46,797 nucleotides of DNA from a virus. The stretch lies in IMG/VR virus record IMGVR_UViG_3300033143_007604, positions 1 through 46,797 of that record. One strand, written 5' to 3'. How positions within the stretch are numbered: the first letter of the stretch is position 1; every line of letters begins with the position of its first letter. The notes beneath the pieces were generated by a model. It worked only from the letters and a program-made list of their open reading frames with translations. It was not told the origin of the DNA and did no database searches. This document shows positions 1 to 46,797 of the stretch, one piece after another. The position numbers and the translations under genes were made by a program.

Positions 1-114
1 CGTCTGGTATATCTCTCATTTTTTCCAAGCAGTCGCCTTGTGTAGTATAAATCATTTTATTTATTTCTACCCCTATTTCACCTTCATTATATAAAAATCC
101 ACACTCCATTTAAA
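1..114. repeat. Terminal direct repeat (circle overlap)
   Basis: Bases 1-114 are identical to 46684-46797. The repeat lies inside coding sequence (the 5' part of the methyltransferase gene and the end of the gene at 73-345), not in a terminus-like region. It is therefore best read as the overlap of a circular assembly, meaning a complete and circularly permuted or cohesive-ended genome of about 46,683 bp. A genuine short terminal repeat on a linear virion DNA cannot be excluded. Confidence 0.9.
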
Positions 115-2887: not shown

Positions 2888-3211
2888 TCATTTAAATATG
2901 ATTAGAAAAGGTGATTCCTGTAAAACCGCAAGACAACATGCGGATATTTGCAATAATTGATCGCGTAATTTCAGTTTTGTTTTTTGCATCTCAAGTGGGA
3001 TATCGGCTTCGTGCTCGTTATATCCGCCTTCCACCATCAAAGTCAAATAGTTGGAAGCAGCAACCGCTTTTTCAAACTCCCCATAAATAATTGTCATCCA
3101 TCGTTCGAGATCATATCCAGGATTAACACCAAACATTTCTAGCTGTTTTTGACGTTCAAGCCAAATTAGTTTAGTAAATTCTTCCGGAGTAATTACAAAT
3201 GGTTCTTCCAT
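2888..3211 (-). CDS. MazG-like nucleotide pyrophosphohydrolase
   Basis: 107 aa. The segment W-M-x4-G-E-F-E-K-A, then LRDQLLQISACCLAVLQ near the end, resembles the short all-alpha MazG-like (dATP/dGTP pyrophosphohydrolase) proteins of phages, in which a GE..KA helix and an LRDEL.Q.AA helix carry the metal ligands. Some canonical Glu residues are replaced here (for example Gln at the end of the last motif), so activity is uncertain. It is the first gene after promoter A and a long structured leader. If active it could hydrolyse a dNTP, which would fit the PurZ pathway elsewhere in the genome (MazZ makes dGMP for PurZ in Z-genome phages). Confidence 0.55.
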   Translation of the reverse strand: MEEPFVITPEEFTKLIWLERQKQLEMFGVNPGYDLERWMTIIYGEFEKAVAASNYLTLMVEGGYNEHEADIPLEMQKTKLKLRDQLLQISACCLAVLQESPFLIIFK

Positions 3212-4207: not shown

Positions 4208-4542
4208 TTTATTTTTCCTATTTGTTTAAGAAATGCTGTGTTATTTTTCAGTTCCTTAGTTATTCTTATACGCTCGTATCGAGTTTTTTTATTCTCTTCT
4301 TCTTTGGGATTGTCTTTAAAGTCTTTTGATAACCGATGTTTCATTAGGATACTTACCGATTTTATACCCATGATAAAGCCTTCTTCTAAAAGCAGCACAT
4401 ATTTTTTCAGGACTTCAGGTTTATCTTTAAGATGAATAATTGTCAGATCATATAAATCTCTAAAAACTTCACAAATAGTTCTTTGCGGATTGGTTCCTGT
4501 TCCCTTTGGGGTTTCGAATATTTTATTAATTATCGTTTTCAT
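4204..4542 (-). CDS. Hypothetical protein in glycan operon
   Basis: 112 aa, Lys-rich, largely helical by composition, with a charged C-terminal half (DNPKEEENKKTRYERIR). No known domain and no membrane segment. It is wedged between the FkbM methyltransferase and the PIG-L deacetylase and overlaps the latter by four bases, so it is co-translated with glycan-tailoring genes. Function unknown. Confidence 0.65.
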   Translation of the reverse strand: MKTIINKIFETPKGTGTNPQRTICEVFRDLYDLTIIHLKDKPEVLKKYVLLLEEGFIMGIKSVSILMKHRLSKDFKDNPKEEENKKTRYERIRITKELKNNTAFLKQIGKIK

Positions 4543-4544
4543 AC

Positions 4545-5165: not shown

Positions 5166-5170
5166 ATTAA

Positions 5171-5686
5171 TCATCTCCTTTTACAATACAAACATTCCAT
5201 TATCCCACCACGTCCGTCTAATTCTTTAGATGTACAAAGATAAGTAAATCTATCTAATATCTCAAACTTCTTTTCAACTTGTTTTCTTATTTTTATCACA
5301 GCACCCTCTCCTCGATGCCAATAAGAAATGGCAGCGAAACTACCCATCTTACCTATCCTATGCAATTCCGGTACAGACTTTCTAACAACAGTGTGATATA
5401 ACATATTAAATGAAACAATAAAATCAATTGAATTATCAAGTATACACGTCAACTTTTCAGCTTTCCCTTGATAGAATATTTGTTTCGTTTTATTGTAAGT
5501 TAGATTCGGACAGATATTCTGATCAACTAGATACATCCAACGATATGAAAAATAATTAGAATACAGTCTACCTTCGCTATCAGAATCCTCTCCACATCCA
5601 ATATTCAACACAGTATTAAAATGTTTTCCATCTAAAGTTTTTCTCATCCATGCGTTATGTAATAATCTCAATCTTGTTGGCAACAT
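5171..5686 (-). CDS. SAM-dependent methyltransferase (type 11-like)
   Basis: 171 aa with a class I methyltransferase core: VLNIGCGEDSDSEG as motif I, a YLVDQN acidic strand end, and SIDFIVSFNMLYHTVVRKSVPELHRIGKMGSFAAISYW, the typical FD.V....LEH......L.E..R.LKPGG region of type 11 enzymes. It is slightly short for the family. Its start overlaps the end of the glycosyltransferase gene before it by 19 bases. A sugar O- or N-methyl transfer is the natural guess from context; the substrate is unknown. Confidence 0.75.
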   Translation of the reverse strand: MLPTRLRLLHNAWMRKTLDGKHFNTVLNIGCGEDSDSEGRLYSNYFSYRWMYLVDQNICPNLTYNKTKQIFYQGKAEKLTCILDNSIDFIVSFNMLYHTVVRKSVPELHRIGKMGSFAAISYWHRGEGAVIKIRKQVEKKFEILDRFTYLCTSKELDGRGGIMECLYCKRR

Positions 5687-6387
5687 TTATTTGACTCCTT
5701 GACAAAAGCTTTATAAGCTTTTTCCTTATCTCCTTTATGTGCAGACCAAAGAGGAGTATTTATATTATAATGCAAAGACCATAAGTTAATATTACAGACT
5801 TTGGAAAGTTGACGTGCAATACCTTTTAGACAATTTTGGTCTTTATAATGTTTGGTACAAATCTTGATTAATTTATTTCCGATATGATATAATTTGCCAT
5901 TATGATTAATTTGATTATATTGATTGCAGAATATAGAATAATTACGTGATCCAACTCTAAATACCATCAATCCAGCTTTATATTTATGCTTTTCAGAATA
6001 TAAACCGACATCAAATCCGTTCATTCTTTTATAAATATCTGATAACGGTTGTCGAACCAGCATGTCTGCATCCATATATATAACCAATTCATTTGGAATA
6101 GTATGCTCAACCAATTTGGGGATAAAATAGGTTCGCAGATTTTGCATAAGAATTTTCCATTCTGCTTGTCCTTTGTCTCCATCATATCTTTTTTGTTCTC
6201 CATCAAAATATAAATAATAATTCATGATATGAGTATTTTTATGAAGATCACGCAGTTCTACTACTGTATCCCATTCTAAATTAACACCAAATATTATTGT
6301 ATTTTCATCTGGTGCATTTTTCGCAATTGATTTGACAAGTAATTTCCCCCATCTGCTAAAATTTTCATCAAAATGAAAAGCTATCAT
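5668..6387 (-). CDS. GT-A-type glycosyltransferase (DAD motif)
   Basis: 239 aa. The segment ELVIYMDADMLVRQPLSDIYKRMNGFDVGLYSEKHKYKAGLMVFR is typical of GT-A nucleotide-sugar transferases (GT8-like and capsule-type). The DAD triad binds metal and nucleotide sugar, and the AGLMVFR segment corresponds to the N-G(V/M)-(M/I)-(L/F) acceptor-side strand. It is soluble with no membrane anchor. It overlaps the previous gene by four bases. Acceptor and donor cannot be read from sequence. Confidence 0.75.
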   Translation of the reverse strand: MIAFHFDENFSRWGKLLVKSIAKNAPDENTIIFGVNLEWDTVVELRDLHKNTHIMNYYLYFDGEQKRYDGDKGQAEWKILMQNLRTYFIPKLVEHTIPNELVIYMDADMLVRQPLSDIYKRMNGFDVGLYSEKHKYKAGLMVFRVGSRNYSIFCNQYNQINHNGKLYHIGNKLIKICTKHYKDQNCLKGIARQLSKVCNINLWSLHYNINTPLWSAHKGDKEKAYKAFVKESNKCCQQD

Positions 6388-7184
6388 CTATTTCTGCTCC
6401 AGTCTTGACATTTTATCTCATGACAAGTTATTGCGTCATGAAATATATCATTACGATAAAGTAATTTTTTAGTTCCACCTTTTAAATGTATGGCTGCTAC
6501 TACGTCTTTTTTATATTGTTTATAAGCTTGATTTATAAAACGATCGGTGTATTGATGAAGACAAAAATTATATTCCCAACCCACATCAATTATATTTATA
6601 TCACAAGACGTAGGTCTTTTCTCTGGATTTTTCCAAAGTACATTAAGAAAATCTTGTCCAATACACCAATCGGGAATGCGTCCTTTATGATTATAACTTT
6701 CAATATATTCAAGAAACAGAGGCCAACTTATCTCTTCAGTTTGATGGTTCCAGTAGGTCAAAAATCCCTTGGTTGCACTTGTTATTCGATAATAATATAT
6801 ACCGCCATTGATAGGATGCCTGAAACCATAATGTCTTTTAGTCAAACCCAAATCAAAAAAAGAATACTTTTTGAATACTGTAAAAGGATCTTTCATGAAA
6901 TAAATATCAGCATCTGAAACAAGCACTTGTGAACCCGTAGGTAAGTCCAAACAATACTTATTTGTTTCAATTACTTTACAAGCTGCTCTTCTTTTCCGCA
7001 TTAAATTTGGAGGTATTACAACCCATGTTACATTATATTTTTTCGTTAATATTTCCCTGAGTATTTGAGGCACATCATCAGTAATAACTACTATAACACA
7101 ATCGGAATTTTTTCGTAAAGTAGCAATACAAGTTTCGAACATATTATTGTCAGCTTGATGATAAGTGATTATGCAATATTTCAT
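6384..7184 (-). CDS. GT-A-type glycosyltransferase (DAD motif)
   Basis: 266 aa. GSQVLVSDADIYFMKDPFTVF carries the metal-binding DAD, and GFRHPINGGIYYYRIT matches the N-G-G strand found after it in nucleotide-diphospho-sugar transferases (GT77/DUF-like). A clear Rossmann-like start (KYCIITYHQADNNMFETCIATL) follows the pattern of the neighbouring enzymes, so these two or three genes may be ancient duplicates. It overlaps the preceding gene by 35 bases. Cytoplasmic; donor sugar unknown. Confidence 0.75.
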   Translation of the reverse strand: MKYCIITYHQADNNMFETCIATLRKNSDCVIVVITDDVPQILREILTKKYNVTWVVIPPNLMRKRRAACKVIETNKYCLDLPTGSQVLVSDADIYFMKDPFTVFKKYSFFDLGLTKRHYGFRHPINGGIYYYRITSATKGFLTYWNHQTEEISWPLFLEYIESYNHKGRIPDWCIGQDFLNVLWKNPEKRPTSCDINIIDVGWEYNFCLHQYTDRFINQAYKQYKKDVVAAIHLKGGTKKLLYRNDIFHDAITCHEIKCQDWSRNR

Positions 7185-7881
7185 TTTTGAACAACCCTTC
7201 TATTTTTCTTCCTGAAAGATGAATCATAATAGGTTTTACTTCAGGATATGGATAATTTATACAATACTCGGCATTAGCTTGACACACAAGCCATTGATGT
7301 GGAAGAATGTACGGATGCCATCCGCTTGCTTCAGCAGCAAGCCACGCAGCTAGAGGTCCTCTGCCTGGATTGTCTATATATATTTTCAAATAGTGGTTCA
7401 CATAATTTTGAACATGAACATTTTTTGGATCCGCAAAAAACATTCCCGAATTACAAACGGATCCATGTGGAATATGAAGATCTTTTCTTTTAATCTGTCT
7501 ATCGACTCCTCTAGATATATCTGAATGCAAAAATATTCTAGGACTTAAAGGCAGGCACATTCCAAATAAATTAGCTAATTCAAAACCTTCCATAAATGCT
7601 TCATTTACGACTCTTATATCATAATCCATGTAGAGAACGCATTCATCATACAATGATATAAGTTTCATCCGCCAATAATTACTATTTCTGTAACCATAGC
7701 GTCTGTGTCCTCTCCACTTGGTTTCGACCATTACTATTTTACAATTATATTTACCTTCCATTTTATTTTCTAGATCGTCGGTATAGATGTGTATGGGCAT
7801 ACGTGTATATTCTCGAATATGCGATACGAATCTTATTAATGCTTTTCTTTTGTTTCCAAATGCTGTAACAACTATTATCAT
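7150..7881 (-). CDS. Glycosyltransferase-like protein (DYD motif)
   Basis: 243 aa. N-terminal MIIVVTAFGNKRKALIRFVSHIREY is a GT-A nucleotide-binding start. CVLYMDYDIRVVNEAFM carries DYD in place of DXD, and HGSVCNSGMFFADP matches the N-(S/A)G-(M/V) acceptor strand. It is most likely a nucleotide-sugar transferase of the same broad type as the two downstream genes. Start overlaps the stop of the phosphatase/sulfatase-like gene by four bases. Confidence 0.7.
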   Translation of the reverse strand: MIIVVTAFGNKRKALIRFVSHIREYTRMPIHIYTDDLENKMEGKYNCKIVMVETKWRGHRRYGYRNSNYWRMKLISLYDECVLYMDYDIRVVNEAFMEGFELANLFGMCLPLSPRIFLHSDISRGVDRQIKRKDLHIPHGSVCNSGMFFADPKNVHVQNYVNHYLKIYIDNPGRGPLAAWLAAEASGWHPYILPHQWLVCQANAEYCINYPYPEVKPIMIHLSGRKIEGLFKNEILHNHLSSS

Positions 7882-8591
7882 CTTTTCACCTCAAACCAAG
7901 GAACGTATTTTAATTCTGAATATCCATCCTTTCCATGACCATATAATTTGGGTCCTATAATTTCTCCATGATCTGCAGTTAATATTATTCTACCTTTTAT
8001 AAAAGGTATATAATAAAAAATTGAATTAAGTGATATTTTTAAATTTTCAATATAGTATTCCCAAAGTTCTTCCCAACCATATTCACACCCATATTTTGTT
8101 ACTATATCATATATACTGTGTGTTAGATGACGTGAATCATGCGGCCATTCGAATTTTTCCAAGAAGTTTTTGCCTTCATTTCCGATATAAGGTAAGTGTG
8201 GTGGTATTAAATGAACTAAATATTTACGATCTATTTTTTGTTGATCTATAAAAGGTTTCATTGTCAAATTCGGGTGCATCCAATTTGTATCAGAATGCTC
8301 CTTCAACTTGATTATATTCCAATCTCCAAAAAATTTATGATATTTGTGTACATACCTATAAATAGATGGATGTGCAGTAATGATTGTGATATCATTATGT
8401 ACTGCCTTCGGTTGCCAGTGATATTCATACCATTGTTTCGTATTTAACGCTTCACTATCTACCTTTAAGCAAGTCCCGTTGATTGATGAATAGGAATCTA
8501 TTACTTGCATGAAAGCATCATAACGACAACAATCTAAAACAATCAATACATCCCATTCTTTTCTTTCCAACAATTCTCTTTGTTTAATCAT
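7878..8591 (-). CDS. Alkaline phosphatase/sulfatase superfamily protein
   Basis: 237 aa. DVLIVLDCCRYDAF gives the first metal Asp with a possible Cys/Ser-Arg nucleophile region (sulfatases use C/S-x-P/A-S-R). HLIPPHLPYIG matches a mid-domain His motif, and IILTADHGEIIGPKLYGHG is the DHGE...GHG metal site near the C-terminus. The superfamily includes sulfatases, phosphoglycerol and phosphoethanolamine transferases. There is no membrane domain, unlike the transferases, so a soluble hydrolase or transferase acting on the glycan is more likely. It is unusual inside a phage glycan operon. Confidence 0.7.
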   Translation of the reverse strand: MIKQRELLERKEWDVLIVLDCCRYDAFMQVIDSYSSINGTCLKVDSEALNTKQWYEYHWQPKAVHNDITIITAHPSIYRYVHKYHKFFGDWNIIKLKEHSDTNWMHPNLTMKPFIDQQKIDRKYLVHLIPPHLPYIGNEGKNFLEKFEWPHDSRHLTHSIYDIVTKYGCEYGWEELWEYYIENLKISLNSIFYYIPFIKGRIILTADHGEIIGPKLYGHGKDGYSELKYVPWFEVKR

Positions 8592-9459
8592 TATATTTCT
8601 TTCTAATTTTTAAGATTGTGTCTTTGTCCCATGTAGGTATAGGCCAGAATTTATCAATTAACCATTCAACAGGATGAATTTGTCCTTTTATTTGATTAGC
8701 CAAAAATTTACTTCTAATAATTCTGCCTGTTGTTCTAGCTCGCATGCCTTTATCTTTGTATGGAAATTTTCCCCTATACAAATGAGCACTCCAAAAATCA
8801 TTACACAATAACAATCTATATCCCATCAACCAGACTTTCAAACTAAATTCTGTGCCGGTGCTGCCCCAATTTCCAAGCGTTTCATCATATCCCCCAAGCT
8901 TCCACCATAAATCTACAGAAACAAACCAGGCTTCTCCACCAAACGCCATCAACTCTGGTTTATGTATATTTTTAAATCCTCCTCCAGTTCTTGGAGTCAA
9001 GTTCTTGTCCAGATAATACTGCATATTTTTATCAACAGGTTTCCATAATTGTTTATCCAGCCTCCACATTTTTGGAATTAGAAATACATCATCTTCTATC
9101 GCCTCTTTAGCTGCAATATCCCAATTAATTGACATCATAGAGTGAGCATCAATTTTCAAAAAGTATTTCCCTTTACTTTGACGCACAGCTTCATTAATAA
9201 GTCTTCGTTGCCCCAAACATTCCTTTACTTCTATAATCTTAATATATTCATTCCTACTAGCCAGATCCTTAACTAATTCAACTTGCTGCCTAAGAATTTT
9301 GGATATATTTGGATCCCTATCGTTGTGTGCCGTGAAATCCCAACCATCTAGAAGAACAAATATTTCTATATCTTCCTTAGCTGTGGCTATAACATTAAAA
9401 ACAGTTTTGTAGAGATATTTTTCATTTCTACTTGGAATAATAACTGACACTAAATCCAT
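8584..9459 (-). CDS. GT2/GT27-like glycosyltransferase, polypeptide GalNAc-transferase type
   Basis: 291 aa from the ATG at 9459, which has AAAGGAT upstream (a longer frame starts at 9495 inside the previous gene). N-terminal VSVIIPSRNEKYLYKTV and FVLLDGWDF are family 2 motifs. KIDAHSMMSINWD has the D-x-H metal motif, and GGYDETLGNWGSTGTEFSLKVWLMGY followed by SAHLYRGKFPY is the W-G-x-E-x3-S/L-K-x-W...H-x-x-R arrangement known from polypeptide N-acetylgalactosaminyltransferases (GT27). It is paralogous to the gene at 10105-10998. Likely role: transfer of a sugar to Ser/Thr of a protein, with the PT-rich virion tails as candidate acceptors (inference). Confidence 0.85.
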   Translation of the reverse strand: MDLVSVIIPSRNEKYLYKTVFNVIATAKEDIEIFVLLDGWDFTAHNDRDPNISKILRQQVELVKDLASRNEYIKIIEVKECLGQRRLINEAVRQSKGKYFLKIDAHSMMSINWDIAAKEAIEDDVFLIPKMWRLDKQLWKPVDKNMQYYLDKNLTPRTGGGFKNIHKPELMAFGGEAWFVSVDLWWKLGGYDETLGNWGSTGTEFSLKVWLMGYRLLLCNDFWSAHLYRGKFPYKDKGMRARTTGRIIRSKFLANQIKGQIHPVEWLIDKFWPIPTWDKDTILKIRKKYND

Positions 9460-10112
9460 TGCATATCCTTTTTTATTTGTTCGCAAAATCCCCAATATTC
9501 TATATTAGATAACACAGGTTTCTCTATTACATTAGATATATTGTTGCCATGCCTAACATCAATACAAGGATATTTATTCGACCTGACTTCCCATAATCCA
9601 GTATGATCATCTCTACTCGTTCCTGGCTCAGATTTTTCCCATCCCCCTTTTTTCATATTCAAATACATGATTCTGTAAAGACGTAAAGTAAAATGAGCTA
9701 GAACCAGCTTAAAATTTCCAGCTAAAGTAGATAAATCACATTGTCCTGTGTACCAGAAACCCTTTTGATTCATGAAATATTTTCTAATAAAATAATAGAA
9801 CGTATCATTTCTGTCAGGTATGAAATCAAAATAATCTAAAGGGTACAAAACGTCATGCTCCGCAAAAAACACAAACTTAGGATTCAAAACTTCATACATT
9901 TTGAAAAGACCATACTGAATTTGTTGGTACATTGAAAAACGACTTCTCTCCATTTCTTCTATAACATAATTATAAGTACCAAATTCTAACTCTCCTTGAG
10001 ACACTGAAAAAATAGGAATATTTCCCGCTACTTTTCTAAGATTTTTTCTGCAATGTTTAGCAACACCCCCATGTAATTTTTGGTCTGTATAATATAGTAT
10101 GGCTTTATCCAT
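9450..10112 (-). CDS. Putative glycosyltransferase (GT-A-like)
   Basis: 220 aa. The N-terminus AILYYTDQKLHGGVAKHCRKNLRKVA and FVFFAEHDVLYPLDYFDFIPD resemble a GT-A fold in which EHD takes the DXD place. A later RDDHTGLWEVRS carries further acidic and His residues. Nothing more specific is recognised. It is embedded between the two GalNAc-transferase-like genes and overlaps both, so it probably extends or supplies the same glycan. Confidence 0.6.
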   Translation of the reverse strand: MDKAILYYTDQKLHGGVAKHCRKNLRKVAGNIPIFSVSQGELEFGTYNYVIEEMERSRFSMYQQIQYGLFKMYEVLNPKFVFFAEHDVLYPLDYFDFIPDRNDTFYYFIRKYFMNQKGFWYTGQCDLSTLAGNFKLVLAHFTLRLYRIMYLNMKKGGWEKSEPGTSRDDHTGLWEVRSNKYPCIDVRHGNNISNVIEKPVLSNIEYWGFCEQIKKDMQWI

Positions 10113-10998
10113 TTTTCAATTGCTCCTTATCCCATGTCGGTACGGGCCGGAATTTATTCACTAACCAATCTATTGTATGAATTTGCAAAGGATATTGATT
10201 ATTTAACCAGTATTCTTTCGTTCGTTTTTTGTTTTCCTGGATCCCTGCTGCACTAACTTTATAAGGAAAACGTCTTCTGAACACATGAGCAAACCACACA
10301 TTTTTATTTAATAATTGTCTACCACCGGAAAGCCAACATTTTAAACTTGTTTCTGGTGCTGATTCCCCCCAACCATATAAAGATTCGTCGTGTCCACCAA
10401 GTTGCCACCAATATTGAACAGAACTAAACCATGAAGCACCCAAATTGCTCATTACTTCACAAACGGGTTTCTGTGCTTCTTCACGTTGAGCGTATTCAGG
10501 CCAATGTCTCTGATGAATGTTACTATCAATATAAAGATAATCAAAAAAACGAGTACCATAAACAAAAGTTTCAGGATCCATTGATCTGATTCTAGGAATG
10601 ATTAAAGTCTCAAGTCCTGCTTCCTCATAAGATTTGATAAGTTCCACATCCCAATTAGGACTAAGATCACAATGGGCATCCAATTTAATAAAATAAGTAG
10701 CATCAGTTTTTGCTAAAGCTAGATTTAAAGCATGTCGAACACCCAGAGAATCAGGTAAGTCATGAATTGTGATTCGTTGATCGGATTCTGCCATCTGTTT
10801 GATTTCTTCAATTTGCTTTCTGTAGATGTCTATTATTGCTTGATTAGATTTGTTGTTAGCAAAAATATCCCATCCATCGAGAATAACGTCGATTTTTATA
10901 TCATCAGGATTTTTCGCAGAAGAGAAATATTGCTTGACTGTTCTTGTCAGAAGTGTTTCATTACGGGAAGGAATAACCACACAAATCTTCTTGCTCAC
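10105..10998 (-). CDS. GT2/GT27-like glycosyltransferase, polypeptide GalNAc-transferase type
   Basis: 297 aa, first gene of the glycan operon. Start codon is GTG with AGGAG eight bases upstream. ICVVIPSRNETLLTRTV and DVILDGWDIF are family 2 signatures. FIKLDAHCDLSPNWD closely follows the D-x-H metal motif of polypeptide GalNAc-transferases, and GGHDESLYGWGESAPETSLKCWLSGG then FAHVFRRRFPY matches their WGxE..S.KxW.CGG..HxFR block. It is the paralogue of the gene at 8584-9459. Promoter B lies 27 bases upstream. Expected role: first sugar transfer onto Ser/Thr side chains; the target is inferred, not shown. Confidence 0.87.
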   Translation of the reverse strand: MSKKICVVIPSRNETLLTRTVKQYFSSAKNPDDIKIDVILDGWDIFANNKSNQAIIDIYRKQIEEIKQMAESDQRITIHDLPDSLGVRHALNLALAKTDATYFIKLDAHCDLSPNWDVELIKSYEEAGLETLIIPRIRSMDPETFVYGTRFFDYLYIDSNIHQRHWPEYAQREEAQKPVCEVMSNLGASWFSSVQYWWQLGGHDESLYGWGESAPETSLKCWLSGGRQLLNKNVWFAHVFRRRFPYKVSAAGIQENKKRTKEYWLNNQYPLQIHTIDWLVNKFRPVPTWDKEQLKNG

Positions 10999-36241: not shown

Positions 36242-37186
36242 TCACACCCTCACTATCTGCGATCGTCGGTACTGAACCGTCTCTAACTGCTCCACAATAT
36301 TAGCCATTTTTGCCCAGCCCAACTCCGCAGGGTCTTTATTTCCGGCCATAAAAACAGGAAAGGTTTTTACCCCCCCGCGAGCTAGCTTATTCGCAGAGAA
36401 CAACATTCCCTTTTCAGCATCTGGATCGCACAACAAAAACACTCTTTGGATATGATCATCTCTTAATTGATTAATTTGTTGTTGTGTAATAGAACTACCC
36501 ATTATAGCGTATGAATGAGGAGTTACGAAATGATCAAAAACACCTTCAACTAGCACCACATAGTCATGCCATTGATGAATATGTCTTCCAAATAGGGGTT
36601 TGCTAGAATTTACCATTTCAATTGTCTTGACTCCATCATCTATATCATCTAATTGTCTACCAGTATAAAAGATTATTTTATTTATCTTATTCCAATAAGG
36701 AAAATACACGCGATTTTCAAAACGTACTACCGACACATGATAATCAGCAATTTGCCCACGAGTCATCCCTCTATTTATACAATATTTATAAGCTTTAACA
36801 GCCAATGAACTATACCCCAAATCATTAGGTTTCAACTCCAACGCCTCAAATATAGGAACCAATAACACCTTAGAATCATCCACTAACTCAGGATAAGATA
36901 GGGAAAGAGGAGTCTTCGAATTGGTAGTGGAAACCAAATGCCTTTTAAGTTTTATCCATGACTCCAAATCCCCATGAATCTCACTCTTTAAACTTCCACC
37001 TGCCTTACACTTAAAACAATGATATAAAACTTTTTCTATATTAATATAAAAATGCCCACTATCTGTCTTACAAAAAGGGCAGGAAACTATTAATTGATTA
37101 GTGTCATTGGAGAATATATATTCACCAGAAAATACTATTGATATTATATGATCTAAAACTTCTTTTTTATTTATTCCAGTTCCCAT
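36242..37186 (-). CDS. DNA primase (zinc + Toprim)
   Basis: 314 aa. CPFC at residues 36-39 and CFKC at 57-60 form the zinc-binding domain of DnaG-like primases. The Toprim catalytic core has VVLVEGVFDHF (Glu ~214) and VFLLCDPDAEKG (Asp-x-Asp at 254-256). It makes RNA primers for lagging-strand synthesis with the helicase, whose gene end it overlaps by 16 bases. It lacks a separate helicase domain, so it is a stand-alone primase and shorter than bacterial DnaG. Confidence 0.88.
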   Translation of the reverse strand: MGTGINKKEVLDHIISIVFSGEYIFSNDTNQLIVSCPFCKTDSGHFYINIEKVLYHCFKCKAGGSLKSEIHGDLESWIKLKRHLVSTTNSKTPLSLSYPELVDDSKVLLVPIFEALELKPNDLGYSSLAVKAYKYCINRGMTRGQIADYHVSVVRFENRVYFPYWNKINKIIFYTGRQLDDIDDGVKTIEMVNSSKPLFGRHIHQWHDYVVLVEGVFDHFVTPHSYAIMGSSITQQQINQLRDDHIQRVFLLCDPDAEKGMLFSANKLARGGVKTFPVFMAGNKDPAELGWAKMANIVEQLETVQYRRSQIVRV

Positions 37187-38421
37187 ATTCTTTGCCTTCC
37201 AAAATCAATCCCCAGCAAAATCCTCTCATGTCTAATAGCATCACGCATTTTCGCTGTATAAAGAGTAATACGCTCAAGTTGCTCATCCTCTAATGTTTGA
37301 CCAAACCCCAACACTATATCAGCAGATTCTATTTTCCCATACGCCTCTGACACATCCTCTACCGACACAATCTCCTTACCCGTTCTAGTTTTATTCACCT
37401 GAGAAGCAGTCCAGTGAACAACTTTAAGTAATCCCGCTGCTGCCTTACAAGATTCAAAAATTTCCCGATATTCATGTCTAGGTTCCGATCGTCTATTTGG
37501 TGGACAAAACCGATCGGCATAATCGGTAATTATCACATCTACCTTTCGTCCCTGCGTCTCCTCTAATGATCGTACAAACGAAATCACATCAGATATTTTC
37601 GTAACCCTTGTAGTTACCTGCTTAATTTCACATCGACCAGAGGTTCTGGACAACACCCTATCACGTATTTGACGTGCCTCCTGAGGATTATCGACCATTT
37701 CTGAAATCGTCCTATTAGAAATACACTGCATCAATCGACGCTTGATTTTGGCTTCACCGTCCTCAAAGGTAAAATACACAACAAACAAACCTTGACAAAC
37801 CGCACTAACCGCAATATTTATTAAAACTGTAGTCTTGCCTCCACTTACCACAGTTAGAATAATACCTAAATCACCCACCTCAATTCCCCCATTCAGCTTA
37901 TAATCAAGTTTTTGCCATGGAGTTCTAATTATCCTATTCCTAAGCTCCTGCTGATCCACATCTAGTTTAGTGTGGTTCATTAAAAGATCATCCCCAATAC
38001 GAGATGATTTATCAATCTCATTTGCTAACAGTCTTGGATCCGACCCATTATTAGGAGTAAATGAAAAACTTTGAAGCACCCGATCGATCGCTGTCCATTT
38101 TACCCAGGTTAAGATTTTGTCTCGTATATAATCCAAATCCCCACATTCTGGAAGATCCCTAAGAGTTGTAATCAATCCCCCCTTATCCCGATAGTTAGTG
38201 TCTTTGATCACGTCAACTAAGGTATCATAAGATGGTTTCTCGTGATATTTATCAAAGTAGGTTAATATTTGCTCAACCAGAAAGCAATTATTCTCACTTG
38301 AGAACATCACCCCTGATAGAATTGAACGATATTTATTGAGAAAATTGGAATCCTGAAATATAGCAGATATCACTTTTTCTTCAAATTCAGGATTGATGGT
38401 ATAAGATGTTCTGATATCCAT
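37171..38421 (-). CDS. DnaB-type replicative helicase
   Basis: 416 aa. The N-terminal domain (FEEKVISAIFQDSNFLNKYR...LVEQILTYFDKYHEKPSYDTLVD) matches the DnaB N-terminal fold. Then GGIEVGDLGIILTVVSGGKTTVLINIAV gives the Walker A at ~191-198, FTFEDGEAKIKRRLM is the H1a region, VDVIITDYADR the Walker B, and HWTASQVNKTRTGKE the sensor-type motif. It unwinds phage DNA in front of the polymerase. Adjacent to primase as in many phage replisomes. Confidence 0.88.
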   Translation of the reverse strand: MDIRTSYTINPEFEEKVISAIFQDSNFLNKYRSILSGVMFSSENNCFLVEQILTYFDKYHEKPSYDTLVDVIKDTNYRDKGGLITTLRDLPECGDLDYIRDKILTWVKWTAIDRVLQSFSFTPNNGSDPRLLANEIDKSSRIGDDLLMNHTKLDVDQQELRNRIIRTPWQKLDYKLNGGIEVGDLGIILTVVSGGKTTVLINIAVSAVCQGLFVVYFTFEDGEAKIKRRLMQCISNRTISEMVDNPQEARQIRDRVLSRTSGRCEIKQVTTRVTKISDVISFVRSLEETQGRKVDVIITDYADRFCPPNRRSEPRHEYREIFESCKAAAGLLKVVHWTASQVNKTRTGKEIVSVEDVSEAYGKIESADIVLGFGQTLEDEQLERITLYTAKMRDAIRHERILLGIDFGRQRIWELE

Positions 38422-38541: not shown

Positions 38542-38988
38542 TTATAAACCCGTACTTCCAAAACCAGATGAACCCCTCTCCGTATCTGGCAACTGTGTTA
38601 CCCTCACAATATCAAAATCAGGAACTGGCAGAATTAATAATTGACTAATCCTTTCCCATGGTTTGATTAGCACCGGTTCTGCTCTTTCATTTAAAGCGGG
38701 ATTCCAAACCAACGTATAGAGAGAACCCGTATAACCACTATCTATCACTCCTGTTATTACCATCAAGCCTCGACGAACAAAAGTTGATGATCTAGCTCGA
38801 ATAATACCACAATACCCATCAGGAATCTTAATCCTCATTCCCGCCGATATATCTTTACTCATCCTCGGACCAACAATTACTGTAAGTCCTGACGCATTGC
38901 AGAGGTCATAAGCACAATCCCCCTGCTTTGCCCGTTCCAAAGCTGCTCTTATCGCAACCACTTCATTATCATACATAACTTGTAACAT
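38542..38988 (-). CDS. dut: dUTP diphosphatase
   Basis: 148 aa trimeric-type dUTPase. The five motifs are in order: GDCAYDLC near residue 22, RARSS near 64, GVIDSGYTG near 79 (catalytic Asp), ERISQLLI, and the P-loop-like C-terminal ERGSSGFGSTG. It hydrolyses dUTP to dUMP, which keeps uracil out of DNA. This fits well with a DNA polymerase that carries a uracil-DNA glycosylase-like domain. TAAATG junction with the kinase gene and GAGGAGAT ribosome site. Confidence 0.92.
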   Translation of the reverse strand: MLQVMYDNEVVAIRAALERAKQGDCAYDLCNASGLTVIVGPRMSKDISAGMRIKIPDGYCGIIRARSSTFVRRGLMVITGVIDSGYTGSLYTLVWNPALNERAEPVLIKPWERISQLLILPVPDFDIVRVTQLPDTERGSSGFGSTGL

Positions 38989-39519
38989 TTAACAGTATAT
39001 CTCCTCAAACGTTCTTTGACTGGTAGAATCGCTTTTTACTATACGCATATATTCTATAATTAATTCAGATAATTGCCTTGCGTCCACTTCCATCTTTTTC
39101 CGATAAAAACTAGAATTAAAATTAATTGTTTCCCTATTTTGTAATCGCTTCCACTGCTCTGGCTCATCTGTGTATAAAAATCTCATATCTAGACTTTTTA
39201 CATTATATATTTGCATAGTATCGAGAAGGTATTTTAATTGAAGCAAACTCCGAGGAAATCCATCTAAAACCATATCTTTATCATGGCGAAGCCCAATCTG
39301 TATTAAATAATATACAAGCGAACGTGCTAACGATTCAGTAGCTTCAGAAGTAGCTGGATTATTCTGATCAACAAAAAATACTTCCCCGAATATTCCCCGA
39401 AAGATCTTCCCCATTCGTACCAACATAGGAGGATTATCCTTAGGATAGGATCCTATTAATTTTTCACAATAAGTAGTTTTACCAACCCCAGTCGTTCCAA
39501 TCACACTGATGATTTTCAT
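38989..39519 (-). CDS. Adenylate-kinase-like nucleoside monophosphate kinase
   Basis: 176 aa. SVIGTTGVGKTTYCEKL is the P-loop at residues 7-15 and MVLDGFPRS is the adenylate-kinase signature near residue 93. RLQNRETIN corresponds to the R-x-x-x-R lid region, though shortened. It phosphorylates nucleoside monophosphates. Encoded between dUTPase and PurZ-like genes and overlapping the latter by four bases, it could raise the unusual purine monophosphate made by that pathway to the diphosphate; this is inference. Confidence 0.75.
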   Translation of the reverse strand: MKIISVIGTTGVGKTTYCEKLIGSYPKDNPPMLVRMGKIFRGIFGEVFFVDQNNPATSEATESLARSLVYYLIQIGLRHDKDMVLDGFPRSLLQLKYLLDTMQIYNVKSLDMRFLYTDEPEQWKRLQNRETINFNSSFYRKKMEVDARQLSELIIEYMRIVKSDSTSQRTFEEIYC

Positions 39520-40583
39520 AATATAATCTCCACCTCATCATTTTTAGCACCATATCCGACAAGCTTCAACTCACACCTACTTCCAGAACTATAAGTATTC
39601 ATATAGTGTTGTAATTTACGAATAAAAGAACTCCGTTTTTCCTCTTCTATATAATTTATAAAATTGAGAAAAGCAAAGTCAGGATTTACAAGCTTTAAAA
39701 ATCTACCCAACTGAACGTAACTAAATGTAAAAACTCTTCTTACCCGCTTGGTTACGGTAGTATACTCTATAACATCTTGACCAATTTGTTCACTAATTTT
39801 TTCCCAAGAAGTCTCCTCTTGATCACTATAATGAGGACCACTCCACCCATCCTCAACATTTCCCACTCGTATAGGATAAGTCCGCAAAGACGCAATAATA
39901 CTACCTAAATCACTAAGAGGAAACCCAGCATTATCCATACCTCGACCTGCCAAACAATCACGAGAGGTAACATATGGCCACGCATGCCCATAATTAAGAC
40001 TAAGATCGAAACCCTGTGCCATCTCTAATAATGCAGTATGATCACCACCCGACAAAGAAAATGGTTCCCGTAGTAAATAAGACTCCAGAAAAGGTACATC
40101 ACTAGCAATCGCATATTTCCCCTCTTCAGGATATTTCCTCTCCATCTTCCGTACAGTAGCAGCCATCCCACCAGTCATAGTAGAAGCAATCGAGAACAAT
40201 TGTTGCTTTTCTAAATCAACATCATCTTTACTTAACACACCTGCCATTGGATGTATAAAAAGAAGCCAACCTTCACCACATTTCTGGCCCCGATACTCCT
40301 CGGCTTGCTTGATTTCTTCCTTTAACCTATCCACATCAATCACAGCATATGGTCCAATAATAATATTTTTAACACTCCGAATCAACGATCCCGTTGGTAA
40401 CATTTTGGTAATAAACTTACTACCATCATCATCTACATATGTATGACCAGAATTTGGCATGAAATCACCGACAGCAACATCAATCTCTGGATATCGATTA
40501 TAAAGATATCCTGCCAGTTTGCCTTTACCAGTGCTGCCCCATTGACCGTCGACAATAATATTCGCTTTGCCCTGTTTAATCAT
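39516..40583 (-). CDS. purZ: PurZ-like adenylosuccinate synthetase
   Basis: 355 aa from the ATG at 40583 (GGAG six bases upstream; an ATG at 40595 is less likely). VDGQWGSTGKGKLAG at residues 11-25 is the PurA P-loop GQWGDEGKGK with the catalytic Asp replaced by Ser, the hallmark of phage PurZ. The GHT motif (46-48) is kept, and EYTTVTKRVRRVFTF matches the aspartate-binding loop. It is shorter than bacterial PurA (about 430). PurZ joins dGMP and Asp to start 2-aminoadenine deoxynucleotide synthesis. The neighbouring kinase and downstream polymerase support this. Confidence 0.85.
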   Translation of the reverse strand: MIKQGKANIIVDGQWGSTGKGKLAGYLYNRYPEIDVAVGDFMPNSGHTYVDDDGSKFITKMLPTGSLIRSVKNIIIGPYAVIDVDRLKEEIKQAEEYRGQKCGEGWLLFIHPMAGVLSKDDVDLEKQQLFSIASTMTGGMAATVRKMERKYPEEGKYAIASDVPFLESYLLREPFSLSGGDHTALLEMAQGFDLSLNYGHAWPYVTSRDCLAGRGMDNAGFPLSDLGSIIASLRTYPIRVGNVEDGWSGPHYSDQEETSWEKISEQIGQDVIEYTTVTKRVRRVFTFSYVQLGRFLKLVNPDFAFLNFINYIEEEKRSSFIRKLQHYMNTYSSGSRCELKLVGYGAKNDEVEIIL

Positions 40584-40584
40584 C

Positions 40585-41406
40585 CTATTCTCCATATATT
40601 AATTTATCTAAGAAATCCTTATCACTAATATCTTCCTCTTTTTGTGATGACTTGTCCTCTTCCTTTCTCTCCTCCTTCTCCTTTTTATTATGACGTAGTT
40701 CCCTCGCCTCCTGTAACGATTCTACCTTAGTTTTTCGTGATGGTTCATCGTCCGCTGAATCCTGAACCTCTTCCAATTCCTGCTCATCCCACAACTCAGA
40801 CAAATCGACACCTACATTCCGAGCCTGAATCTCTAGTGTTTGGTCCACCACTTCTGTTAGAGGATCAACTACCTGTTCCAGAAGTCCCTTATTCACTGGA
40901 TAGGGTTTACGTGAGATTGTTGTCGTATATTCAGTATCCAAGCCATCTCCAGTCCGCTCGATTTCGAAGCAATGTCCTGTTTTCGGTTCGAGAACGTCTT
41001 CCCATTCCTCTGACAAGACATAGTTACAGATCTCTTCCCATACGGTCGTCGGCAAACTCCAGACACGAATAGATTTGGCATCCTGATCAACAGCAATGGC
41101 ATTAACATAATATTTCGATCGTGCCATATAAACTCGTTCGCGTCCTTTAGTTTCAGCCAATTCGTTAATACGGCAAAAGACACAAGGTTTGTCTAGGGTA
41201 CTGGCTCGACATACACCGATGCTCTTTATACCACCATCCGCTTTCCGATGATCAACTACCAATCTTGAAAATTTTTGGTTTCCTTCAGAATCCTCAAACT
41301 CAAGCACACGTAGTCTGGTAATACCCTTTTTTATATATCTCACTCTTCCCATTCTTTGTGAAGCTTTCTCCATTTCTTCCCGCAATAAATCACGATTTAC
41401 AGCCAT
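40585..41406 (-). CDS. Single-stranded DNA-binding protein (gp32-like)
   Basis: 273 aa. The N-terminus has basic and aromatic residues (RMGRVRYIKKGITRLRVLEF). A zinc-like Cys set (CRASTLDKPCVFCRINE) and YMARSKYYVNAIAVDQD follow, then a long acidic, lysine-mixed tail from about residue 205 (DSADDEPSRKTK...DISDKDFLDKLIYGE). OB-fold core, zinc site and acidic tail are the layout of T4 gp32-type proteins. It would protect single strands and recruit the helicase, polymerase and recombinase. Confidence 0.75.
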   Translation of the reverse strand: MAVNRDLLREEMEKASQRMGRVRYIKKGITRLRVLEFEDSEGNQKFSRLVVDHRKADGGIKSIGVCRASTLDKPCVFCRINELAETKGRERVYMARSKYYVNAIAVDQDAKSIRVWSLPTTVWEEICNYVLSEEWEDVLEPKTGHCFEIERTGDGLDTEYTTTISRKPYPVNKGLLEQVVDPLTEVVDQTLEIQARNVGVDLSELWDEQELEEVQDSADDEPSRKTKVESLQEARELRHNKKEKEERKEEDKSSQKEEDISDKDFLDKLIYGE

Positions 41407-42141: not shown

Positions 42142-42174
42142 ATCATAACGTCTGGGGTTTAAATTCGCTTTCAC
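42142..42174 (-). promoter_or_regulatory. Promoter D: ECF-type element
   Basis: Fourth copy of the 33-bp element (GTGAAAG, 17-nt spacer, CGTTATGAT). It overlaps the last codons of the polymerase gene, so part of it is coding as well. Downstream are the 92-aa gene, UvsY-like, SSB, PurZ-like, kinase and dUTPase genes, which then form one unit ending at the 38.4-kb stem-loop. Confidence 0.65.
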
Positions 42175-44578
42175 TAACCATCTCATATAAATTCCTACCG
42201 ATATGAACATCTACTTCCAAATGTGTGGGTTTGTTCTTCCAATACCACATCTGATTATGGATAAGCATTGAGTCTTTTAATACAGCAATGGCTAATTTTA
42301 AATTATCGACATCCACATCCATTATAATACTATCATGAACCGTTCCAATTATCACCGCTCTCAACTGTCTCTGTCTTAATTTTACTATACACCGACACAA
42401 CGCAAGCAAACAAAATCGATTGCCAGTAGATTGTACTGAGTAATTACCGGCTTGTCGCAAAGCTCGTTCACTTTCCCAATGATCCGAACTCCTGGCATTT
42501 GGAAGATGCCTTCTAGCACCAAACAGATCCTCAACATAGCCTTTATGAATTGCTTCCCTATGAAAACCTTGACGAAACCGAGCAATACCTGGAAACCTAC
42601 TATTATAACCATCTATCAGCTTTTTTGCCTCCTTCAAACTAACATCAATAGCCTGTGACAGTCCGTATTCTGTCTGGCCATACATTTGCCCTAAATTTAG
42701 CGTCTTACCGCGTCTTCGCTGCTCCTTAGTTACATCATCATAATCCACCTTATATATCACAGATGCAACCCATCGATGTAAATCTAATTTTTCATTAATA
42801 GCCTTACACATTGATTGATCACCCGACCATCCTGCCAGAATTATCGGTTCAAGTTGTGAATAATCAGCACTCACTAAATACCCATCATCATATCTGCTAT
42901 CAAACGCCCTACGAACAATCGAATGAACAGGTATATTTTGTAAGTTTGGATTGGAAGATGAAAGCCTACCAGTTACAACTATTGCCTGGTTATACTGCGT
43001 ATGGACACAATGATGAGGTCCCAAACTTTCATCCCATTTATTAAGAAACCCATTTAACATAGCACTATAGGAACGAACTTGGTTCATATCCCCAATAGCT
43101 GGATATTTATCAATATATGGGGCCAAATGATCCTTATCCAACGATCGCATACCTTTCGAATCTGGTTGTATAGGTAATTTCAATTCATCAAAACAAAGCC
43201 TCTCCATCTGCTTTCGGCTTTTTGGATTAAATAAATCTCCATCTTTAAATGTTTTAATGTTTTCCACCGCCCATTTTCGAACCCGAAGCACTTCTGGACG
43301 AGATTGAAATCTATCTTCCATTTCCACTATTTTCGAGTTTATTTCCACCCGCAATCGCGTCACCTCTTCAGGATCGATATGCATGCCAATCAATTCTACT
43401 TGTGCTAGAAAATAAGCAAAACTTTCCTGCATTGCAACAATATTCCCTTGCCCTTCCCTCTCTATTACCTCTGTAAGTTTTTTTTCCGATTCATAAGTAG
43501 CTAATGCGTCGAGACCACAATAAGTTAATAATTCTCCCAACTCCACTGACTCCACACTTTTTGGTACATCCTGATAATGTGTTTTATAATAAGCCCATGG
43601 CAACCCCGCCCATCCAGCAATAGCCCCCAAATTGCACCCTGCCGTTTCATCAATACAATGCATTCTCAACATCGTGTCTCGTAGTAATGCAGAACCACCA
43701 AACCGCAAAAAATTACACTTATGCTCGTATTTGGCGTTTTGTGCTATACCCCATCCATTTCTTATAATTTGGTTCCAAAGACGTACTATATCACGTTGTT
43801 GATCACCCTGCCATACCATTTCCCGATGATCTAAAGGAAAACACACCGCCCCATCAACTGTTGCAACTCCTATACACACTATTTGTAGACTCCGATTTAG
43901 TTCTGGTCTCTTCGCATCTACATCACCAATAACTTCATAATCATAAGCAAATTTCTCAGATGAATAAAGTAACTGTTGTAGATAATTTTTAATCTCAAGA
44001 TATTTAATTAAATGGCGAACTTTCGGAAGAGATGGTATTCCCTTTTTTAATATCGACTCCACTAGTTCCCAACACCCAAACCATTTATCTTGAATGGCAC
44101 GATAATCCTTGTTGCCCTCTGATCGTAATAAATATGATGGATGATAGGAATAAATAACTGGAATGGTTTGCCCATTAATATTCACACTCTCCATTTGTCC
44201 AACCTTAGTGGATATCGCTGTTTTTTGCTGCAAAACCGATTGAGCAGCATAGGCCCCAAGAGCGATTATAACTTTTGGTTTATATTTTGTAACCAAATCC
44301 ACCCAACATTGACGGCATTTATTTATATGAGCTTTAGTAGGTTTGTCAAACTGATGAAGACATCGCACAGCATTATCAATTATATATTTATTCGTAATCC
44401 CAGACAGCACAGACCTGAGTATCTTACCCGATGGCCCGACAAATGGTCTATTCGCCTTCAATTCTTCATATCCTGGCTGTTCCCCCAACACCAAAATATC
44501 ATTACCAGTAATCTCAGCCTTTATAAAGCCTTTACCATCACCACGCCTACTACACTTATTACAAAACTCAATATTCAT
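42143..44578 (-). CDS. Family A DNA polymerase with N-terminal uracil-DNA glycosylase domain
   Basis: 811 aa. Residues 1-175 are a family 4-type uracil-DNA glycosylase: Cys6, Cys9, Cys73 and a Cys88/Cys91 pair for an iron-sulfur cluster, GEQPG at 32-36, HPSYLLR at 146-152. Residues ~205-370 are a 3'-5' exonuclease (DYE at 213-215, NAKYEH at 281, YCGLD at ~353). The polymerase has motif A (Asp572), motif B (RRRGKTLNLGQMYG, 622-634) and motif C (HD at 748-749). It copies the phage genome. Located upstream of the PurZ-like gene, it could be the DpoZ-type enzyme of a 2-aminoadenine phage. The glycosylase fusion is unusual. Confidence 0.92.
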   Translation of the reverse strand: MNIEFCNKCSRRGDGKGFIKAEITGNDILVLGEQPGYEELKANRPFVGPSGKILRSVLSGITNKYIIDNAVRCLHQFDKPTKAHINKCRQCWVDLVTKYKPKVIIALGAYAAQSVLQQKTAISTKVGQMESVNINGQTIPVIYSYHPSYLLRSEGNKDYRAIQDKWFGCWELVESILKKGIPSLPKVRHLIKYLEIKNYLQQLLYSSEKFAYDYEVIGDVDAKRPELNRSLQIVCIGVATVDGAVCFPLDHREMVWQGDQQRDIVRLWNQIIRNGWGIAQNAKYEHKCNFLRFGGSALLRDTMLRMHCIDETAGCNLGAIAGWAGLPWAYYKTHYQDVPKSVESVELGELLTYCGLDALATYESEKKLTEVIEREGQGNIVAMQESFAYFLAQVELIGMHIDPEEVTRLRVEINSKIVEMEDRFQSRPEVLRVRKWAVENIKTFKDGDLFNPKSRKQMERLCFDELKLPIQPDSKGMRSLDKDHLAPYIDKYPAIGDMNQVRSYSAMLNGFLNKWDESLGPHHCVHTQYNQAIVVTGRLSSSNPNLQNIPVHSIVRRAFDSRYDDGYLVSADYSQLEPIILAGWSGDQSMCKAINEKLDLHRWVASVIYKVDYDDVTKEQRRRGKTLNLGQMYGQTEYGLSQAIDVSLKEAKKLIDGYNSRFPGIARFRQGFHREAIHKGYVEDLFGARRHLPNARSSDHWESERALRQAGNYSVQSTGNRFCLLALCRCIVKLRQRQLRAVIIGTVHDSIIMDVDVDNLKLAIAVLKDSMLIHNQMWYWKNKPTHLEVDVHIGRNLYEMVSESEFKPQTL

Positions 44579-45033
44579 TTCAAATCAAATTCCTGTTTTA
44601 TAAAATCAAAGGTGCTTTCCGCTGTTGGTAATACAGAATGCTCCAACCCAACATAATTAATAGGACACTGATTTTTTAATTCTGCAATCGAATGCACTAT
44701 CGGTATCTTCATTATCTTTCGTGCAAATTCTTCCTCACCATTTGCTCCCCTAGACGACCCATCTATCCGCCACAACACATCACAAACCAACAACCATTCT
44801 ATATCCAATTTTATCCAATATTCATATGATCTTGGAAAGACATTATCCCAATAAAAATATAAATGTGGCACAAATGGAGTATAACCATATTTTCTAATTT
44901 GCTGTGCAATCTTTAAAGCATGTGTTATTCTATCAATCGGCTTGATCTCCGGTTCGTCATCATTTAAATTTAAAGATATCGGGCCAGCAATATAAACTCT
45001 GCATATATTGCTTGATGTTGATGTTTGCTCCAT
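44575..45033 (-). CDS. Nested deoxyribosyltransferase-like protein (internal start)
   Basis: In-frame ATG at 45033 with GAAAGGA four bases upstream would give a 152-aa protein (MEQTSTSSNICRVYIAGPIS...) covering exactly the DUF4406/nucleoside 2-deoxyribosyltransferase-like domain. The site falls at the end of the basic linker, where a domain boundary is expected. Likely to be used, not proven. Confidence 0.55.
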   Translation of the reverse strand: MEQTSTSSNICRVYIAGPISLNLNDDEPEIKPIDRITHALKIAQQIRKYGYTPFVPHLYFYWDNVFPRSYEYWIKLDIEWLLVCDVLWRIDGSSRGANGEEEFARKIMKIPIVHSIAELKNQCPINYVGLEHSVLPTAESTFDFIKQEFDLK

Positions 45034-45465
45034 TCTATCCTTTCGCCTATAATAATACTCCTTCTGCTGCATCCTCTCTTTTTTAGGATTTGCTTTATAT
45101 CTCTCTCTCCTTTTACGTTTTTTCTCCTCTTTATTTCTCAAATAATATAAACGTAGCCTCTCCTTAACACTGCCCTCTGCTAAGGTCCCCTTTGCAATCC
45201 TATTAGATTCCGCCCGAATAGCATTAAGAGCCAGACGATAAAGAAAAGCCTTAATTGTTTCCGGCCTACTAAGATCGACTTCTTCTAAGTGTTTCCAAAT
45301 GCGGATATGTGCTGCTTGCACTACATCATCTATATTCATATCTGGAACTATTGATTTGGCAATTTTATATAGAGAAGGATCGAGTTTTTCAAACAACCCA
45401 TCAAATCGTTCTTCCAAAGCGTCTTTAACTAAATTCCGCCATTCTGCAATTTCTTCTGAAGCCAA
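44575..45465 (-). CDS. Sigma region 2-like domain fused to deoxyribosyltransferase-like domain
   Basis: 296 aa. Residues ~20-95 (LFEKLDPSLYKIAKSIVPDMNIDDVVQAAHIRIWKHL...IKAFLYRLALNAIRAESNR) look like sigma70 region 2. A very basic linker (KEEKKRKRRERYKANPKKER) follows. From residue 155 on, RVYIAGPISLNLNDD...ITHALKIAQQIRKYGYTPFVPHLYFYWD...WLLVCDVLWRIDGSSRGANGEEEFARK is the DUF4406/nucleoside deoxyribosyltransferase-like fold. There is no region 4. Such a fusion is odd; an internal start could release the enzyme part alone. Confidence 0.75.
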   Translation of the reverse strand: MASEEIAEWRNLVKDALEERFDGLFEKLDPSLYKIAKSIVPDMNIDDVVQAAHIRIWKHLEEVDLSRPETIKAFLYRLALNAIRAESNRIAKGTLAEGSVKERLRLYYLRNKEEKKRKRRERYKANPKKERMQQKEYYYRRKDRMEQTSTSSNICRVYIAGPISLNLNDDEPEIKPIDRITHALKIAQQIRKYGYTPFVPHLYFYWDNVFPRSYEYWIKLDIEWLLVCDVLWRIDGSSRGANGEEEFARKIMKIPIVHSIAELKNQCPINYVGLEHSVLPTAESTFDFIKQEFDLK

Positions 45466-45950: not shown

Positions 45951-46014
45951 TTTTCACCTTCATTATATAAAAATCCACACTCCATTTAAATCCAATTTGT
46001 AATAATTCATTCAA
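45943..46014 (-). pseudogene. Remnant of the 90-aa gene's 3' end
   Basis: In one frame this stretch reads NELLQIGFKWSVDFYIMKVK then NE and stop, matching the C-terminus of the 90-aa protein (73-345) which reads DELLEDGFKWSVDFYIMKVK. It has no start codon and lies on the other side of the methyltransferase gene, whose last codons overlap it. 39 bp are identical (45952-45990 and 76-114), the rest diverged. This is best explained by insertion of the methyltransferase gene together with a homologous gene end from a related phage. Confidence 0.7.
45952..45990. repeat. 39-bp direct repeat flanking the methyltransferase
   Basis: Identical to 46759-46797 (and, through the circle, 76-114). The two copies bracket the methyltransferase gene, so recombination between them could gain or lose that gene. 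Confidence 0.85.
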
Positions 46015-46738
46015 ACAACAATCCATCCTTCGCGATACGCTCTTTTGCCATTTCATAATATTCAATATCTTTTTCTATACCAATAAAATTTCTATTTAGT
46101 CTTCGTGCTGCCACCCCCGTTGTGCCCGAACCCATACAAAAATCCAAAACCATATCACCTTCATTTGTATAAGTTCTAATTAAATATTCCATTAATTTAA
46201 CAGGTTTTTGTGTAGGATGAGTGTTTTTATTGTTTGGGTTTCTAATTTTGATTATTGTTGAAGGATGGAATAGCCCCCTATTGTTTTGTGCAGTACACAT
46301 TGTATCGTGATACTGTTTGCATTGCTTGCTAACACCAACCCTCTTATCTTGATAGACGTAGTCTCGTTTTTCTTTTTGGGGATTGTACTGGGGCCGCTTC
46401 TCATAAAAAATACAAATATCCTCGTGCTTTTTTAGTGGCTGCTTGTTGGCATTGAAAAAATTAGATGAAATGCTTTTCTCCCACACCCAACAATACTTAA
46501 ACATTTTCATATTTGAACTTATCAATGTTGTCGTAAATGGCTGACTAGCAGTCATCACAATCGCACTGTTTGGCTTAATAATTCGTTTTAACTGCTCCCA
46601 CATTGGACCTAGCGGTATTATTGAATCCCACTTGCAAGCGGTTGTACCATACGGGGGATCTGCTAAAACCATATCAACCCTACCGTCTGGTATATCTCTC
46701 ATTTTTTCCAAGCAGTCGCCTTGTGTAGTATAAATCAT
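46007..46738 (-). CDS. DNA adenine methyltransferase (DPPY type)
   Basis: 243 aa from the ATG at 46738; an ATG at 46792 inside the repeat lacks a ribosome site. Motif IV DPPYGTTACKWD comes early and the SAM motif DFCMGSGTTGVAA late, the order of beta-class N6-adenine (or N4-cytosine) methyltransferases. HPTQKPVKLMEYLI and FIGIEKDIEYYEMAKER are also typical. No matching restriction enzyme is nearby, so it is an orphan, probably protecting phage DNA. It is flanked by 39-bp direct repeats, a sign of recent gain. Its presence is curious if adenine is replaced in this genome. Confidence 0.88.
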   Translation of the reverse strand: MIYTTQGDCLEKMRDIPDGRVDMVLADPPYGTTACKWDSIIPLGPMWEQLKRIIKPNSAIVMTASQPFTTTLISSNMKMFKYCWVWEKSISSNFFNANKQPLKKHEDICIFYEKRPQYNPQKEKRDYVYQDKRVGVSKQCKQYHDTMCTAQNNRGLFHPSTIIKIRNPNNKNTHPTQKPVKLMEYLIRTYTNEGDMVLDFCMGSGTTGVAARRLNRNFIGIEKDIEYYEMAKERIAKDGLLFE

Positions 46739-46797
46739 TTTATTTATTTCTACCCCTATTTCACCTTCATTATATAAAAATCCACACTCCATTTAAA

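Follow-up and report, generated by a model that had tools for sequence, protein, structure and literature searches.

A complete phage genome couples a PurZ-family gene to an adenylate-kinase-fold gene and a DutZ-group dUTPase gene, a candidate third gene set for 2-aminoadenine DNA

The IMG/VR virus record IMGVR_UViG_3300033143_007604 (positions 1 to 46,797, hereafter the window) carries, on the minus strand, a gene for a PurZ-family succino-aminodeoxyadenylate (dSMP) synthetase of 355 aa (purZ, 39516..40583). It is followed on the same strand by a gene for an adenylate-kinase-fold nucleoside monophosphate (NMP) kinase (38989..39519), considered here as a candidate kinase for dZMP, the deoxynucleoside monophosphate of 2-aminoadenine (Z), and by a gene of the trimeric-dUTPase family (dut, 38542..38988). 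The purZ stop and the kinase start overlap as ATGA, and the dut start directly abuts the kinase stop, with zero gap; purZ is translationally coupled to both genes and lies near a minus-strand gene for a family A DNA polymerase with an N-terminal UDG domain (42143..44578). The original prediction, made from the sequence alone, had named the kinase and the polymerase among the neighbours supporting a PurZ call and hence a likely Z genome, but had passed over the dUTPase-family gene and a sigma/NDT fusion gene (44575..45465). The window is bounded by an exact, unstranded 114-bp direct repeat (left copy 1..114, right copy 46684..46797). Consequently, the record is a complete genome, and the gene absences reported below are real rather than due to an incomplete contig.

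The open reading frame (ORF) of purZ (39516-40595, minus strand) would encode 359 aa from an in-frame ATG at 40595 or 355 aa from the ATG at 40583; we prefer the latter, as originally annotated, because GGAGA lies five bases upstream of it. The product matched phrog_1211 ('2-aminooxy adenylosuccinate synthetase') at 4.9e-59 and PF00709 at 2.4e-22; its top solved-structure match was phiVC8 PurZ (about 1e-58), and phiVC8 was also its top phage match (37% identity over 96%). The P-loop is, as first read, GQWGSTGKGK, against TQWGDEGKGK in E. coli PurA, so that Ser occupies the position of the PurA catalytic Asp (GQWGSTGKG). This replacement, which had been taken as a mark of PurZ, is present but is not diagnostic on its own. 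A scan of bacterial and archaeal genomes (L104-L178) brought up numerous chromosomally encoded PurA-like proteins in which Ser or Gly replaces that Asp (GGQxGSEGKG), although the scan pattern favoured Ser, so that no frequency of such genes can be drawn from it. Ser is thus necessary but not sufficient, and the protein was assigned instead by its position in trees and by the residues of its active site.

In a tree of 53 sequences, the PurZ proteins of the window's type (here kinase-type) and the classic phage PurZ formed one group (97/98), in which the clade holding the window protein (99/99) was distinct from that of the classic proteins (99/97); PurZ0 and the cellular relatives fell outside. 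A second tree, of 109 rows, gave the same placement, apart from PurZ0 and the PurA-like proteins. The comparison with PurA, PurZ and PurZ0 that had been proposed as a check therefore places the window protein with phage PurZ and not in a PurA-like clade. When mapped on S-2L PurZ, whose dGMP-pocket residues served as reference (PMC8342488), most pocket residues were found to be kept; the deviations (A50S, G130A and C204V) occur in other PurZ proteins or in neighbours. At the guanine-conflict position (Q308 in S-2L, N297 in phiVC8), the window has Asn, whereas PurZ0 and PurA have Asp. By its residues, then, the protein is an ATP-type PurZ, with the ATP-selective Asn; having Asn rather than the GTP-type Asp, and lying outside the PurZ0 clade, it did not qualify as a PurZ0. 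On the combined phylogenetic and active-site evidence the protein is almost certainly a PurZ, and dSMP formation is predicted.

The earlier call of an NMP kinase at 38989 was confirmed by family search and by an AlphaFold model (pLDDT 92.5) whose best fold matches were adenylate kinases. Across 14 diverse members of the family, GK, D86, P89-R90 and Q94 were invariant and R41 nearly so, giving an NMP-site motif of Arg plus DGFPR-x3-Gln with an invariant AMP-site PR-x3-Q. These residues include the Arg and Gln that, as in the known adenylate-kinase motif, presumably hold an adenine-type NMP. The motif suits dZMP, but it suits AMP and dAMP equally, and the fold search cannot tell kinase substrates apart.

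The association of these genes with purZ is recurrent. Among IMG/VR loci, the kinase directly follows purZ in 30/33 kinase-type versus 1/47 classic loci, and a Dut or dUTPase_2 gene lies within 1.6 kb of purZ in 21/33 versus 1/47, counts in which the grouping and the gene census come from the same, related loci and the kinase hidden Markov model (HMM) was built from members, so that P values for them serve as description only. In a sister group, kinase and PF08761 dUTPase_2 form a single fused protein, the latter domain being all-alpha, with a fold unrelated to that of trimeric Dut; the C-terminal dUTPase_2-like domain was detected by Pfam in L045 and L048, and by HMM in L046, L047, L051, L052, L054, L064 and L067. 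That one type of operon contains dUTPases of two unrelated folds argues for a real need of a deoxynucleoside triphosphate (dNTP) hydrolase beside purZ. PurZ followed by the kinase was also seen in L030 (262,650 bp) and L035 (136,240 bp); the known Z phages compared are all far smaller. Within the classic PurZ clade, two loci are mosaic: in L065 the kinase adjoins purZ and DatZ, DUF550 and DpoZ are present, and L091 has a Dut plus DatZ and DpoZ. The trees suggest, depending on rooting, that the classic gene set arose within a kinase-type grade.

Whether the co-translated kinase acts on dZMP is, in our judgement, an evenly balanced question. It may instead be a general-purpose kinase for AMP/dAMP or another NMP, increasing the supply of dNTPs and playing no special part in Z synthesis. 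That explanation, to which we give somewhat less than an even chance, agrees with the motif's fit to AMP and with the fact that phiVC8 and S-2L leave completion of the pathway to the host's enzymes (PMC8342488). The strict coupling of the kinase to purZ and its near absence from classic Z phages speak against it, as does the consideration that recycling of dAMP would oppose dATP removal. In published work the steps beyond dSMP are ascribed to enzymes of the host, with no phage kinase named (PMC12884076). We found no mention of a phage kinase in Z synthesis in the open PMC literature, to which our search was limited; the novelty of a phage dZMP kinase is accordingly provisional.

The classic partners of PurZ are absent. 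DatZ (PF12917) was found in 0/16 genomes (the window and 15 related contigs) versus 9/9 classic control records, and six-frame family searches with positive controls ruled out a DatZ hidden in unannotated ORFs. The lack of a DatZ-type hydrolase, already noticed in the original prediction, was thus borne out. DUF550/MazZ (PF04447) was likewise not found in the window, either with the Pfam model, which detected the controls, or with our own HMMs. Nor did the plain HD family PF01966 match in the window, a weak test, given that the model missed 1/2 controls. The small protein encoded at 2888..3211 (minus strand) had been labelled MazG-like, but neither this label nor an identity as MazZ found support: no Pfam or NCBIfam model matched it, and its predicted structure is a weak helical model (pLDDT 60). 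The accompanying caution that the pathway might be partial or use another enzyme was apt, the candidate replacement being the Dut-family gene two genes downstream of purZ.

The DutZ enzymes of Wayne and Ghobes hydrolyse dATP and dGTP, the former efficiently (PMC12884076). In our dUTPase trees, which rest on a short alignment and carry SH-aLRT support only, with no bootstrap, the window Dut clustered with these proven DutZ and with other PurZ-linked Duts (SH-aLRT 92 and 94). PurZ linkage was observed for 23/25 members of this DutZ group and for 0/116 Duts outside it, in a set that included the nearest viral Duts, fetched regardless of purZ. Three of the PurZ-linked members were found via Dut alone; these further virus contigs, L333, L377 and L386, each combine a PurZ-like gene with a DutZ-group Dut. 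No residue signature separating DutZ held among the Duts compared: motif 5 was dropped because it varies in ordinary viral Duts too, and the motif 3 variant DxGY, present in all Z-phage Duts, is not exclusive to them, since most Duts retrieved with a DxGY-favouring pattern carry it as well. Judging from the gene tree, the window Dut probably acts on dATP and dGTP.

The polymerase belongs to family A, as first annotated, and has the SPO1 architecture, with UDG fused to PolA. It shares UDG, 3'-5' exonuclease and PolA domains with the SPO1-type gp31 family, at about 27% identity across 95% of the length, but differs in belonging to its own branch. In the polymerase tree, the enzymes of the window-type PurZ phages formed that branch (support 100), close to the SPO1-like enzymes but separate from DpoZ and DpoZ0; the polymerase is thus not of DpoZ type. 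The branch is nearly always PurZ-linked, one member, L197, being a 15.8-kb fragment in which no purZ was seen. The replacement of the helix-O Tyr by Phe is the only change common to both DpoZ clades (PMC8599892); Phe is found at this place in phiVC8 DpoZ (Phe459) and in all DpoZ and DpoZ0 sequences with a readable helix O.

Two solutions for Z-DNA have been published, PurZ with DatZ, MazZ and DpoZ-2, and PurZ0 with DutZ, DmtZ and DpoZ-1 (PMC12884076). The classic Z-cluster of phiVC8, S-2L and SH-Ab 15497 contains purZ, mazZ/DUF550, datZ and DpoZ-2 or PrimPol. The window shares with it an ATP-type PurZ, encoded in a replication block in which genes for pool control come immediately after purZ, but has a kinase, a Dut and a UDG-PolA in the absence of DatZ, DUF550/MazZ and DpoZ, and its PurZ forms a separate clade. 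The PurZ0 phages Wayne and Ghobes carry purZ0, dutZ, dmtZ, DUF5664 and DpoZ-1 (PMC12884076). Here, the likeness lies in a DutZ-group Dut in place of DatZ/MazZ, and in an NDT-like domain elsewhere in the window genome; the differences are the ATP-type PurZ (Asn, not Asp) of another clade, the kinase, the other polymerase lineage, and the NDT-like domain, which lacks the Asp12 and Asn77 of DmtZ.

From these comparisons a pathway can be proposed. PurZ would join dGMP and aspartate with ATP, the chemistry of its family, and host adenylosuccinate lyase would then yield dZMP. The adenylate-kinase-fold protein may convert this to dZDP, and host nucleoside diphosphate kinase would form dZTP. Dut, if it behaves like the DutZ of PurZ0 phages, would clear the competitor by hydrolysing dATP and supply dGMP by hydrolysing dGTP, thereby standing in for both DatZ and MazZ. 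The UDG-PolA would copy the genome, Z being chosen over A probably mainly via the dNTP pool, as in S-2L. Phylogeny, active-site residues and the recurrent purZ-linked gene set all support the initial call, and we consider it likely that this genome contains Z. That the whole route operates, with PurZ and a phage dZMP kinase on the way to Z-DNA, a DutZ-like enzyme removing dATP and dGTP, and UDG-PolA as the copying enzyme, is also likely, if a little less so.

Several observations weigh against this proposal. Adenylate kinases normally use AMP. The window polymerase keeps the helix-O Tyr, without the Phe shared by the DpoZ enzymes. No Dut adjoins purZ in L034-L044, and G008, a contig of the same type, has no Dut at all. 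The window PurZ scored 222.5 bits with the NCBIfam PurZ model NF038379, under the curated cut-off of 300; this is in keeping with a separate PurZ branch, and by its sequence the protein is related to, yet outside, the narrow classic group that the model describes. Lastly, EcoRI cut all phages tested in one study, including the Bacillus phage vB_BpsS-140 (PMC6483233).

Among cultured phages with a similar gene set, vB_BpsS-140 (MH884512, deposited as DSM 29700) is the nearest. It resembles the window in having a purZ-like gene, adk and dut with no DatZ or DUF550, but its purZ-like gene is basal in the PurZ tree, adk and dut do not adjoin it, and there is no PolA gene. Its genome contains 21 DraI sites (TTTAAA) and 24 EcoRI sites, and it was the only phage tested that DraI did not cut (PMC6483233). 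Resistance at an all-A:T site fits Z, although other base changes could cause it too.

The combination of DraI resistance and EcoRI sensitivity in vB_BpsS-140 would also suit a genome in which PurZ is active but only some adenine is replaced, an ordinary dUTPase and the polymerase UDG serving to exclude uracil. Such partial replacement would accord with the lack of DatZ, DUF550 and DpoZ, and a dUTPase and a UDG-PolA make joint sense. We nevertheless regard it as unlikely, because the window Dut clusters with proven DutZ enzymes, which hydrolyse dATP efficiently, and because such Duts are tied to purZ and not to UDG-polymerases generally. That the gene product is instead PurA-like and acts on another substrate, in a phage with ordinary adenine, is very improbable: the Ser of chromosomal GGQxGSEGKG proteins and the low NCBIfam score could be cited in favour of this, but the protein's placement next to classic PurZ and away from the chromosomal paralogues, the STGKG loop with the ATP-type Asn, and the adjoining DutZ-group Dut all contradict it.

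The same minus-strand replication block encodes a single-strand DNA binding protein immediately upstream of purZ (40585..41406), a DnaB-like helicase (37171-38421) and a DNA primase (36242-37186). The gene at 44575..45465 (minus strand) fuses sigma-70 region 2 to an NDT-like (DUF7768/DUF4406) domain, a fusion also seen in L003 and L023; in L024 the two parts are separate ORFs. We rejected this domain as a DmtZ, for which Asp12 and Asn77 of the Ghobes enzyme are the criterion (PMC12884076), since alignment by eye placed Ser and Asp at these positions; by its residues, the fusion is possibly a nucleotide enzyme other than DmtZ. About ten sugar-work genes occupy 3557-10998 (minus strand), which is unusual for a 47-kb phage. 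They encode a PIG-L deacetylase, FkbM and other methyltransferases, and family 8, family 2 and nucleotide-diphospho-sugar glycosyltransferases, and may decorate virion proteins or the host surface. A DNA methyltransferase of the N6-adenine/N4-cytosine class, with a DPPY motif, is encoded at 46007-46792 (minus strand); if the genome does contain Z, an N6-acting methyltransferase would have to act on Z.

The locus appears to represent a third recurrent Z gene set, unlike both described ones and common to a large group of uncultured phages. It would bring to Z-DNA synthesis a candidate phage dZMP kinase and a polymerase that belongs to neither DpoZ lineage, and it extends the known range of PurZ sequences, which now includes a contig of 262 kb (L030). 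These enzymes are potentially useful for making Z-containing DNA. More tentatively, with the balance tipped slightly against so broad a reading, the phages concerned may form a large uncultured, possibly ancestral Z-phage branch that combines purZ with a dedicated dZMP kinase, dATP/dGTP-hydrolysing dUTPases recruited twice, each time with a different and unrelated fold, and a third, independent polymerase lineage.
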